In this document: piece after piece, positions 5,987-57,322 of the stretch
Position numbering within the stretch: the first letter of the stretch is position 1
Layout: each line of letters starts with the position of its first letter
Source: an uncultured Bacilli bacterium
GTDB lineage: Bacteria; Bacillota_I; Bacilli_A; RF39; UBA660
NCBI GenBank assembly: GCA_944350385.1
Contig: CALVOV010000003.1
Coordinates: 1 to 64,000 of the forward strand
Length of the DNA: 64,000 nt
Reading direction: 5' to 3'
The notes under the pieces: generated by a model
What the model saw: only the letters and a program-made list of their open reading frames with translations
The model's database searches: none
Told to the model about the DNA's origin: nothing
Made by a program: the position numbers and the translations under genes

Positions 5987-6364
5987 TGGTGGAGTTGAGG
6001 AGAATCGAACTCCTGTCCGAAAACAAAGCTACATAAACATCTACAAGTTTAGTTAACTAATCTTTCTTATATACTACCTATATAGTTAACGAAAAAAGTA
6101 ATATACCAGTCTTAAATTCTTACTATTACCCAGACCAATAATAGTCATAACCTAATAAATTGAACCTCAGATTATCCCTTAGGTAAAGATAAAATGAAGT
6201 GTATTCCCTATTTTATATTAGGCAAAAGCAACAGCTTGGTTTCCACCAAACATGTTTGCGAATACTTCTTTTACTTTGTTTGCATTTATTTGTTTTGTCC
6301 GTATCGTGAAACATCCGACCTGCAGTCTATGCTCTTCTATTCCCGTCGAAACCAAATCAACCCC
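5987..6364 (-). ncRNA. ssrA: Transfer-messenger RNA (tmRNA)
   Basis: 378-nt one-piece tmRNA. The 5' end GGGGTTG pairs with CAACTCC, followed by A and an encoded CCA at the 3' end (5987-5989). The characteristic blocks GGTTTCGAC near the 5' end and GTTCGATTCTCC in the T arm are present. The tag reading frame runs from a GCA resume codon at 6283 to TAA at 6218, giving 21 residues that start ANKVKEVF and end GGNQAVAFA. The AFA ending resembles Mollicutes tags more than the LAA/VAA ending of most bacteria. smpB, its protein partner, is at 10434-10871. Confidence 0.97.
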
Positions 6365-32245: not shown

Positions 32246-32833
32246 TTATAAAGAACATTTTATAATATAAAAACCTTTTCTCTTATTGAGAATTTCAACA
32301 TTACTATATACTTTTTTTAAGTCGATTAATAACGATTTAGCTCCTTGCTCTTTTCTGATTACCAAGAACAACTTCCCATTTTCTTCTAAGTAATCACAAG
32401 CATTCATAACTATGTCATAGACAACATTTTTCCCAGCCCTTATCGGAGGATTGGTAACAATAGTAGAATATTTCGAATTTATTTTTTCATAAGTGAAGCT
32501 TTCAATAACATGAACATTAGAACAACCATTTTCATTTTTATTTCGCTCAGCTAAATGAAGTGCTCTTCTATTAACATCAACCATATCAACATTAACATTA
32601 AGAATCTTATTCAAAATAATTCCAAATACACCATAACCGCAACCCATATCAAGAATTTTGCCTCCAACTTCTTCAAGCGGGATTGTTTCAAGAAGAAGTC
32701 TACTGCCAAAATCCAAACCATCTTTAGAGAATACACCATTATCAGTAAAAAAAGAAAACTTTTTTCCTAAGACAAAGCATTCGATTTTTTTAACTTTACT
32801 AGGTAAATCTTCATTGCTAAAATATTGCCCCAT
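32246..32833 (-). CDS. ybxB: Class I methyltransferase, YbxB/RsmC-like
   Basis: SAM-dependent methyltransferase, 195 residues, with ILDMGCGYGVFGI (SAM motif I) and TNPPIRAGK, the N/DPPF-like motif of guanine-N2 RNA methyltransferases of the RsmC family. In Bacillus the gene ybxB occupies the same place between rplL and rpoB, so orthology is likely. The exact RNA target is not proven for this family branch. Promoter at 32908-32936; rpoB follows after 34 bases in the same unit. Confidence 0.88.
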   Translation of the reverse strand: MGQYFSNEDLPSKVKKIECFVLGKKFSFFTDNGVFSKDGLDFGSRLLLETIPLEEVGGKILDMGCGYGVFGIILNKILNVNVDMVDVNRRALHLAERNKNENGCSNVHVIESFTYEKINSKYSTIVTNPPIRAGKNVVYDIVMNACDYLEENGKLFLVIRKEQGAKSLLIDLKKVYSNVEILNKRKGFYIIKCSL

Positions 32834-33010: not shown

Positions 33011-33224
33011 AAAAAAAGTCACCGCAGTGACCGAGTTTGATAAATATTTGCTAATCTATTATCAGTAGAAAAGTAAATATACTTACCATTAAGAGTTTTC
33101 TTTCTCTCTACAATATTCATAATCTAATCTCAACTAACTTACCCTTTAAGACACGATACCTTCAAAAATTAATATATTCGCCAAAAAGATAAGCAAATAC
33201 ATTAATCAGATATCTTAGATTACA
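33011..33224 (-). ncRNA. Putative structured noncoding RNA B between rplL and ybxB
   Basis: An open-frame-free unit on the minus strand. Promoter TTGACA-17-TAAAAT at 33230-33258 and a strong terminator GTCAC-TGCG-GTGAC plus seven T at 33011-33031. The core is closed by TGATTAAT (33208 down to 33201) with ATTTATCA (33045 down to 33038; 7 of 8 pairs), then ATTTGC/GCAAAT (33198-33193 with 33051-33046). It contains local hairpins (GTAA...TTAC, AGAG...CTCT). Length about 214 nt. I do not recognise the family; it lacks tmRNA, SRP and RNase P signatures. A 6S-like regulator is conceivable but unproven. Confidence 0.55.
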
Positions 33225-33229
33225 ATTTA

Positions 33230-33258
33230 ATTTTAATATTAAAATAATCAATTGTCAA
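33230..33258 (-). promoter_or_regulatory. Promoter of putative RNA B
   Basis: TTGACA (33253-33258), 17-base spacer, TAAAAT (33230-33235). Confidence 0.65.
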
Positions 33259-33268
33259 GAAAAAAAGC

Positions 33269-33613
33269 AAAAAAAATATACAGCCAATGATTAAACTATA
33301 TATCAAAAAAATATAAATAAGTTTTTACTTTCTCATTTTTCTAAATATATTAAAATTAGATAAAATTTTTATTTTTTTATATAAAAATTATACTTATTTT
33401 ATTCTAATATTTTAGATAATATTTTTTTTGAATAAAATATCTGATAAATACTTTATCCATTGGTTTAGGATGCTAAATAAGTTAATCATTACACTCACTT
33501 AGCAGTTAGTTGCTTGAAGTTTCCTTCTTCAAATATTGTAACTAATAGGAATGGTAAGATTTTATTAAAAACTTACAAATTGATTAAAGACAACCAATTT
33601 ATCATCTATTAGT
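33269..33613 (-). ncRNA. Putative structured noncoding RNA A between rplL and ybxB
   Basis: Begins just after a perfect consensus promoter (33620-33648). Structured core 33437-33604: closing helix TGATAAAT/ATTTATCA (33604-33597 with 33449-33442), next helix TGGTT/AACCA, hairpins GTAAG...CTTAC and TTGAAG-AAGGAAA-CTTCAA, and a longer hairpin from GCTAAGT to ACTTATTTAGC. A very AT-rich tail (33300-33436) follows. A moderate terminator, TATATAG/CTGTATA with eight T, lies at 33269-33302. No frame of 60 codons exists on either strand. If that terminator is weak, transcription continues through RNA B as one ~600-nt RNA. Family not recognised. Confidence 0.5.
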
Positions 33614-33619
33614 AATTCA

Positions 33620-33648
33620 ATTATATTATTGTTTTTTTAGTTTGTCAA
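33620..33648 (-). promoter_or_regulatory. Perfect consensus promoter of putative RNA A
   Basis: TTGACA (33643-33648), 17-base spacer, TATAAT (33620-33625). It is the best match to the housekeeping promoter consensus in the window and lies immediately after the rplL terminator, with no coding gene for 780 bases downstream. Confidence 0.8.
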
Positions 33649-33651
33649 TAC

Positions 33652-33680
33652 AAAAAAAAAGAAGTTAATTACTTAACTTC
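33652..33680 (-). terminator. Intrinsic terminator of rplJ-rplL
   Basis: GAAGTTAA-GTAA-TTAACTTC followed by nine T on the minus strand. The rplL TAA lies at the loop. Confidence 0.9.
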
Positions 33681-34037
33681 TACAGTAGCTCCAGCTTCTT
33701 CAAGCTTAGCCTTGATTTCATCAGCTTCAGCAGTAGAAATGTTTTCTTTAACAACTCCATTGCTATCAACGATATCTTTAGATTCTTTTAATCCTAATCC
33801 AGTAATTTCTTTAACAACTTTAATTACAGCAACTTTAGCAACTCCTGCAGCAGCAATTGAAACTGTAACTGTGCTTGGAGCAGCTTCTTCTGCAGCACCT
33901 GCAGCTGGAGCAGCAACAGCAACAGCTGATGGATCTACACCAAATTCTTCCTTCATTGCATCTACTAAGTCTTTAATTTCTAATAAAGTCATTTCTTTTA
34001 AACTACTGATAAAATCTTCTCTTGTTAATTTAGCCAT
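33669..34037 (-). CDS. rplL: 50S ribosomal protein L7/L12
   Basis: Stalk protein that recruits translation factors, 122 residues. N-terminal dimer domain, Ala-rich hinge ([16 protein letters not shown]) and C-terminal domain with [24 protein letters not shown] precedes the ATG. Cotranscribed with rplJ 30 bases upstream; its terminator overlaps the stop. Confidence 0.97.
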
Positions 34038-34562: not shown

Positions 34563-34693
34563 AAAACACCTCCTTAATCTATTTAAGGATGCCATAAAAA
34601 AGTTCTTGAGACAAACCAAGAACTTTTCAATTTCTAATTAAAGTCCTCGGTAGGATTTATTTTTATACCTACTGTCTATGGCACCAACAAATT
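34563..34693 (-). promoter_or_regulatory. L10 leader (autoregulatory) with attenuator
   Basis: Minus-strand leader with the conserved block GACAGTAGGT...CCTACCGAGG that the L10-L12 complex binds, flanked by TGCCATA...TATGGCA pairing. An intrinsic terminator AAAAGTTCTTG/CAAGAACTTTT with T-run lies at about 34597-34629, just before rplJ. The layout matches the Rfam L10 leader of Firmicutes. Confidence 0.9.
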
Positions 34694-34699
34694 GTCTAT

Positions 34700-50872: not shown

Positions 50873-50924
50873 GTAAATATCCTCCCTTTAAAGTATCAAA
50901 ATGTATGAAATACTTTACAATTTA

Positions 50925-50953
50925 ATTTTAATATAACAATATAGAAATTGCAA
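50925..50953 (-). promoter_or_regulatory. Promoter of spoVG
   Basis: TTGCAA (50948-50953), 17-base spacer, TAAAAT (50925-50930), right after the veg gene. Confidence 0.55.
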
Positions 50954-57082: not shown

Positions 57083-57322
57083 TAATATCCCTCCTAAAAA
57101 AAAATATTATGACATAAGGACGATTCTATCGCGGTACCACCTTATTTCATAATATTTACTATTATACACTCAAATAGTTAACGCCTAACTACGTCTTAGC
57201 CTACATATCGACTAAGAAGTTCAGAAGCCATACTATAATTAAAAATCATTACTTATTTCCACCAACCTAAGTTCTCTATAAACTTTTTTTAATTAAGCTC
57301 TTCCTCATAACTTTTAAAAGAT
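57083..57322 (-). promoter_or_regulatory. T-box riboswitch leader of metG
   Basis: T-box TAAGGTGGTACCGCG at 57131-57145. Terminator alternative: AATATTATGA...TAAGG pairs with CCTTA...TCATAATATT and nine T (about 57095-57156). The distal Stem I block GGTTGGTGGAAA is visible. Several ATG triplets could be the methionine specifier; I could not choose between them. Confidence 0.92.

Follow-up and report, generated by a model that had tools for sequence, protein, structure and literature searches.

Separate RNAs joined by conserved intermolecular helices are well known, among them U4/U6, two-piece tmRNA and tracrRNA:crRNA; the partners in these systems are either unrelated or fragments of one molecule. 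For proteins, the evolution of a homodimer into a heterodimer after gene duplication is classic, and we know of no such case for structured RNAs. OLE, ROOL and GOLLD are RNA-only homo-oligomers, each built from one gene product (PMC12286853), and palindrome-driven RNA dimers have been described, with only a handful of natural RNAs known as homodimers (PMC7357161). The closest match for the locus analysed here is PGK RNA (RF03040), which Rfam classifies as Cis-reg and presents as a cis-regulatory monomer in which two strands, x and y, pair in cis.

The analysed window is a stretch of 64,000 nucleotides from an uncultured gut bacterium (contig CALVOV010000003.1), in which the genes for two putative RNAs, A and B, are located between rplL and rsmC/rpoB (Table 1; the names rsmC, rpoB and rpoC presumably apply, from sequence recognition and the known operon order). 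A and B share the x/P1/central/hairpin/y order of PGK RNA and its GAGAAAGAAAACUC hairpin, and A also shares its CUGAUAA loop; in contrast to the Rfam description, A and B appear to be two stand-alone genes with x:y pairing in trans. Like OLE, ROOL and GOLLD, A:B would consist of bacterial non-coding RNA with intermolecular pairs conserved by covariation. However, these are homo-oligomers, whereas A:B, known here from sequence alone, comes from two diverged homologous genes, and the three families were unmatched in Rfam searches of the region, which found no credible family besides RF03040. The palindrome-driven dimers (PMC7357161) have a self-complementary interface like that proposed below for the single-copy PGK RNA; they are homodimers, whereas A:B is a putative heterodimer. 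Neither A nor B appears to be an RNA species that pairs with its own copies, as the single-copy PGK RNA probably does, and, unlike the partners in U4/U6, two-piece tmRNA and tracrRNA:crRNA, A and B appear to be homologous protomers.

Judged by its signals, the region holds two separate small-RNA genes, one per half, arranged in tandem on the minus strand with B first and A second, since a predicted promoter precedes each half and a terminator follows each. The terminator of A is the sole terminator-like site listed in a scan of 1.4 kb (0.2 expected), and that of B, absent from the scanner's listing, was identified directly from the sequence. Compared with shuffles, minus-strand folding gave z -3.22 and -4.65 for the two halves, whereas plus-strand folding of both halves (z -1.48 and -0.76) was not better than shuffles, and plus-strand RNAs were rejected on this ground. 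The B core was placed at 33430-33563 by covariance model R1, which reached only four genomes, and at 33427-33562 by R2, which was made from 25 sequences. The initial annotation of this DNA had described five inverted blocks, numbered from the outer ends inward, and one of its readings was a pair of homologous RNAs in inverted orientation; the homology holds up, but both RNAs lie on the minus strand and are not inverted. The closing helices that it drew for each half are present as letters, but are absent from the minus-strand MFE folds and not conserved in congeners, and the compensatory change that it saw between these helices is not the genuine signal, which lies in changes of A versus B across species.

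Table 1. Predicted features of the A and B genes and their surroundings (window positions).
Feature	Position	Strand	Pairing or basis
rplL	33669-34037	minus	
RNA B promoter, TTGACA-17-TATAAT	33620-33648	minus	consensus 12/12, sigma-70-type, predicted
RNA B, ~345 nt	33269-33613	minus	predicted start to terminator
B helix P1 5' strand, ACUAAUAG	33606-33613	minus	pairs with 33541-33548 (fold)
B strand x (block 2), CUUACCAUU	33550-33558	minus	in trans with A 33082-33090, helix (i)
B helix P1 3' strand, CUAUUAGU	33541-33548	minus	fold
B central strand (block 3), UACAAUAUU	33532-33540	minus	in trans with A 33109-33117, helix (ii)
B hairpin UGAAGAAGGAAACUUCA, conserved AAGGAAA loop	33515-33531	minus	B alignment A2
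B strand y (block 4), CAACUAACU	33504-33512	minus	in trans with A 33131-33139, helix (iii)
B hairpin, UUAUCAG (33441-33447) in loop	33430-33458	minus	conserved in alignment A2
RNA B terminator, ATATAG...CTGTAT-T8	33301-33269	minus	read by eye in sequence; kept in congeners
RNA A promoter, TTGACA-17-TAAAAT	33230-33258	minus	consensus 11/12, predicted
RNA A, ~213 nt	33011-33223	minus	predicted start to intrinsic terminator
A helix P1 5' strand	33214-33225	minus	pairs with 33118-33129; A start may fall 2 nt inside
A strand x (block 4 partner), AGUUAGUUG	33131-33139	minus	helix (iii)
A helix P1 3' strand	33118-33129	minus	fold
A central strand (block 3 partner), AAUAUUGUA	33109-33117	minus	helix (ii)
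A hairpin AGAGAAAGAAAACUCU, most conserved part of RF03040	33092-33107	minus	RF03040 alignment
A strand y (block 2 partner), AAUGGUAAG	33082-33090	minus	helix (i)
A loop CUGAUAA	33059-33065	minus	complementary to B loop UUAUCAG
RNA A intrinsic terminator, GGTCACTGCGGTGACTTTTTTT	33011-33032	minus	terminator scan
rsmC-like methyltransferase gene	32246-32833	minus	rpoB, rpoC beyond

A matches RF03040 at 33052-33144 with 35.9 bits, a value that does not reach the gathering score of 50.8; A of the congeners scores 39.8 and 40.6 bits. The GAGAAAGAAAACUC hairpin and the CUGAUAA stem-loop are conserved in A as in RF03040, and the cis helix x:y of the family (CUUAUC/GAUAAG) is mismatched in the alignment of A to the model. 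No RF03040 match was found for the window B, and the B of another genome (G356) is matched. R2 in turn locates B in loci with an A-type RNA and also matches canonical PGK cores, more weakly than B, at up to 62 bits, which indicates that B belongs by homology to the family that A matches. In a tree of 124 cores, built on few columns and unsure in its details, B forms one clade (100/92) beside some canonical RNAs, and A forms one or nearly one clade. By its model match in the case of A, and by the R2 matches and the tree in the case of B, both share apparent common descent with the RF03040 sequences.

The RF03040 model was searched against 386 genomes of the same taxonomic family, all genomes here being draft MAGs, and 92 of these contained matches, 44 of them above the cut-off. 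Wider reach comes only from an exact pattern scan of genome contigs, which yielded 102 stretches, nearly all from uncultured Bacilli and many from gut samples; chance-like pattern matches (L122, L171, L187) were excluded by eye. The pattern had 0 exact matches in viral contigs, and a viral origin was rejected. A stand-alone role for PGK RNA fits better than cis-regulation because the inspected loci have their own promoter, varied neighbours and a terminator, which in the common form carries UUAUCAG in its loop. Among the genes that recur beside the RNA at 117 loci, pgk was not recognised (cluster representatives inspected), and A is not cis-regulatory by position, its terminator preceding rsmC.

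Base pairing between A and B is strongly supported by covariation. Helix (i) joins B-x to A-y (block 2), helix (ii) joins the two centres (block 3) and helix (iii) joins A-x to B-y (block 4). The five blocks of the initial annotation are exact reverse complements where it had placed them; blocks 2, 3 and 4 (CTTACCATT, TACAATATT and CAACTAACT) keep their complementarity in relatives, where compensatory changes are seen, and blocks 1 (TGATAAAT) and 5 (ATCAGATAT) are, by inspection, lost even in both pair-carrying congeners, so that helix candidates from these two blocks were dropped. We found a further match that had not been listed, CTGATAA in A and TTATCAG in B, which supplies a pair of loops. 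In three species of the window's genus, helix (iii) reads AGUUAGUUG:CAACUAACU, AAUUCAUUG:CAAUGAAUU and UUUUGUUG:CAACAAAA, all perfectly complementary, and helix (i) is CUUACCGUU:AACGGUAAG in G002 versus CUUACCAUU:AAUGGUAAG in the window. The suggestion that two minus-strand RNAs pair with each other is thus backed by covariation between the genes.

For a swap test, 33 non-redundant A/B pairs were used, with windows set by anchors and B placed by R2, part of the B training set having first been located through complementarity to A, before the B model existed; a free partner search over whole loci was too noisy (rank 1 in 7/46). Cognate combinations scored 26.8 versus 19.8 for non-cognate ones (z 15.4, 0/20,000 permutations), and each helix taken alone gave the same 0/20,000, with z 9.8 for (i), 11.1 for (ii) and 10.1 for (iii). 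Permutations restricted to clades still yielded z 7.5 (0/20,000). CUGAUAA is present in 33/33 A cores and UUAUCAG in 33/33 B cores. Within the 33 pairs, cis x:y pairing shows no excess in A (z -2.6) or B (z -1.7), nor does self-complementarity of the A centre (z -0.1). Separate partner genes let covariation tell trans from cis, which for a homodimer is impossible from sequence alone; in the A:B pairs, where the two can be distinguished, the arrangement is, by this measure, in trans.

The pairing model also led to a prediction made in advance, namely, that a genome with a non-palindromic PGK core would hold a complementary partner. This was confirmed in G009, where a partner B was found ~300 nt off, on the opposite strand and convergent, with all four helices present: (i) UUCUUAUC:GAUAAGAA, (ii) AAUUACAG:CUGUAAUU, (iii) GGUAAACA:UGUUUACC, plus UUAUCAG. 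G110 likewise holds a partner B complementary to its A. When genome-wide B presence was examined with R2 in 117 genomes from 117 genera, strong matches appeared only in G000, G009, G018 and G110, all of which have a class-A RNA; no partner B was found in G078, a class-A genome that is 71% complete. Cofolding of the window RNAs (binding of -11.9 kcal/mol for AB, -15.5 for AA and -7.6 for BB) did not single out AB. For the cores, cognate cofolds averaged -10.1 versus -6.7 (0/20,000), and AB was better than both AA and BB in 20/33 pairs. RNAcofold cannot represent the x:y helices inside the P1 loop, so its energy is weak proof of pairing.

The homology of both RNAs to RF03040, the intergenic covariation, the loss of self-complementarity and the palindromes of the single-copy RNAs all support, at the level of sequence, one reading that we hold with high confidence: A and B are very probably homologous protomers, descended from a homodimeric RNA whose duplication gave rise to an obligate A:B heterodimer. 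Both would follow a shared plan, P1-5', variable hairpins, x, P1-3', central strand, a hairpin with a purine-rich loop, y and a further stem-loop. The ancestral form, which is apparently still common as PGK RNA, would pair with itself as a homodimer via its palindromic central strand; after duplication, the copies would have diverged, lost self-pairing and become dependent on each other. In the most likely course, each RNA first folds P1 and its hairpins alone, after which the centres pair and x and y are swapped, so that the complex would contain central:central, A-x:B-y and A-y:B-x helices and a contact between the CUGAUAA loop of A and the UUAUCAG loop of B. The outcome would be a pseudo-two-fold complex with the conserved purine-rich loops (AAAGAAAA in A, AAGGAAA in B) exposed. 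Covariation backs the helices; the assembly, stability and partners of the A:B complex are inferred. Presumably, both RNAs are made and dimerise in the cell, and the dimer may present its hairpin loops to a protein or RNA partner, acting in trans as a structural or regulatory RNA. On this reading, an uncharacterised motif that Rfam lists as cis-regulatory would become a testable two-subunit RNA, and dozens of natural A/B pairs, whose interfaces differ, are now supplied for binding and structure work.

The homodimeric origin is the part of this scheme that depends on the single-copy, canonical RNAs. In 63 non-redundant canonical RNAs, we scanned the 27 nt before the hairpin for palindromes of at least 8; a central palindrome is present in 79%, versus 12.7% in shuffled sequences and 24% in a control window. 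The canonical centre is more complementary to itself than to the centres of others (z 14.9), and x:y is self-complementary as well (z 8.4). The palindromes vary widely (ACAAUUGU, UAUGUACAUA, AUAUGAUCAUAU, AUAACUAGUUAU, UUUGCGCAAA and others), and the loop pair covaries, CUGAUAA:UUAUCAG being replaced by CUGACA with UGUCAG in several genera. A homodimer appears to be the simplest reading of the canonical PGK RNA. Alternatively, the A:B pair could be as described and the single-copy RNA a monomer, with the palindrome folded into a hairpin and x:y in cis, as in the RF03040 drawing; the longer palindromes could indeed form 4-bp hairpins with tetraloops. We consider this unlikely, although it is the strongest of the alternatives. 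Self-complementarity at the palindrome centres is far more frequent than a hairpin would require (47:18, versus 198:1033 in shuffles), which argues for two-molecule duplexes, the common ACAAUUGU permits just a 2-bp hairpin, and the homologous helices of the A/B pairs run in trans.

Several genomes carry other combinations of these RNAs. G071 has two PGK RNAs (L050, L057) whose palindromes differ, one being AUAACUAGUUAU and the other UUUGCGCAAA, as if to prevent two homodimers from mixing. Two canonical PGK RNAs with the same ACAAUUGU palindrome are found in tandem, 315 nt apart, in G120 (L039, L056), an arrangement that could resemble an early stage of duplication. Genus g74 includes both types: G373 (L229) has a heterodimer-type pair, its B keeping a AAACUCGG-UUUAUCAG end, and G213 (L253) has a palindromic RNA of the canonical type. 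In genus g18, B seems to start directly at P1, without the helix (i) strand, in G186 and G283 (L230, L231), and G356 has this strand.

Neighbouring small RNAs with extended complementarity look like trans-encoded antisense pairs, and B could be an antisense-type regulator of A, the complementarity serving transient pairing and inactivation rather than a stable complex. Sequence covariation fits stable and regulatory pairing alike. However, antisense pairs are marked by opposed transcription or by unrelated sequence and fold, whereas A and B are homologues that in most cases share a strand, at distances of 215 to 1057 nt in the 33 pairs. Their helices are two-fold symmetric and swapped, and the single-copy form is palindromic at the same sites; antisense regulation predicts none of this homology, symmetry or palindromy, which makes it an improbable account. 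Less probable still is a single read-through RNA running from B to A with long-range intramolecular pairing, the ~600-nt self-folding RNA among the readings of the initial annotation. The halves of the window are in tandem on the same strand, with the complementary segments in antiparallel order, as such a molecule would have them, but the B terminator and the A promoter lie between the halves. Moreover, in 6/33 pairs, A and B are on opposite strands with complementarity kept, so that a single transcript is impossible and this reading is refuted for those pairs, and in G018 the order of the genes is swapped with complementarity again kept. Pairing that outlasts changed gene order and orientation argues for action between RNA molecules. 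A DNA-level inverted repeat (mobile-element ends or recombination sites) or chance in a very AT-rich region, where short inverted matches are common, has a negligible probability: the colinear inverted chain scores 19, a value matched by 0/2000 shuffles of both halves with dinucleotides preserved (maximum 15), opposite-strand pairs carry direct repeats in DNA so that the repeat orientation is not conserved, no transposase was recognised by inspection among the recurrent neighbours, and no relatives were seen that keep the DNA inverted repeat without RNA complementarity.

Returning to the A:B heterodimer, its genes are often found near type VII secretion-like genes, such neighbours being present at 22/42 A-class loci and 0/69 canonical loci. 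The neighbour EssC was recognised by TIGR03928 (E 3.6e-69, below the model cut-off for a partial sequence), and an EssC-like gene is also nearby in G009. Two small genes (MGKYNLGK... and MVKKIKY...), which belong to no Pfam or NCBIfam family, recur beside A-class RNAs in 15-17 loci, for example in L169 (445-1184 relative to the hairpin). At the level of whole genomes, EssC occurs in 71/90 PGK-positive genomes, two with chance-looking RF03040 matches being left out, versus 132/296 others (Fisher p 8e-9, not corrected for relatedness), and in 22/24 A-class genomes of a hand-made list. EssC was rejected as an exclusive marker, being present in 203/386 genomes. The EssC gene of the window's genome is on another contig, and canonical loci have no such neighbour, so that the link of A/B to type VII secretion loci may reflect shared insertion sites; we treat the link as only a lead. 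The broadest version of the scheme, a quaternary RNA complex that passed from homodimer to obligate heterodimer by duplication, with genes in register across genera and a function tied to type VII secretion, is at this point a doubtful, tentative proposal.

The minus strand of the window contains other stretches of note. In the 3' tail of B (33318-33334), GAGAAAGUAAAAACUUA resembles the conserved A hairpin, and a similar AAGAAAGUUAAAACUU stretch is present in congeners. At 50915-50941, a 27-nt stretch has 93% identity with the promoter region of A, a likeness that may be due to chance in AT-rich DNA. A ribosomal protein L10 leader (RF00557, 53.9 bits) precedes rplJ at 34587-34699, as in the congeners, a T-box leader (RF00230, 110.8 bits) is located at 57113-57317, and a tmRNA gene at 5987-6364 encodes the tag ANKVKEVFANMFGGNQAVAFA.
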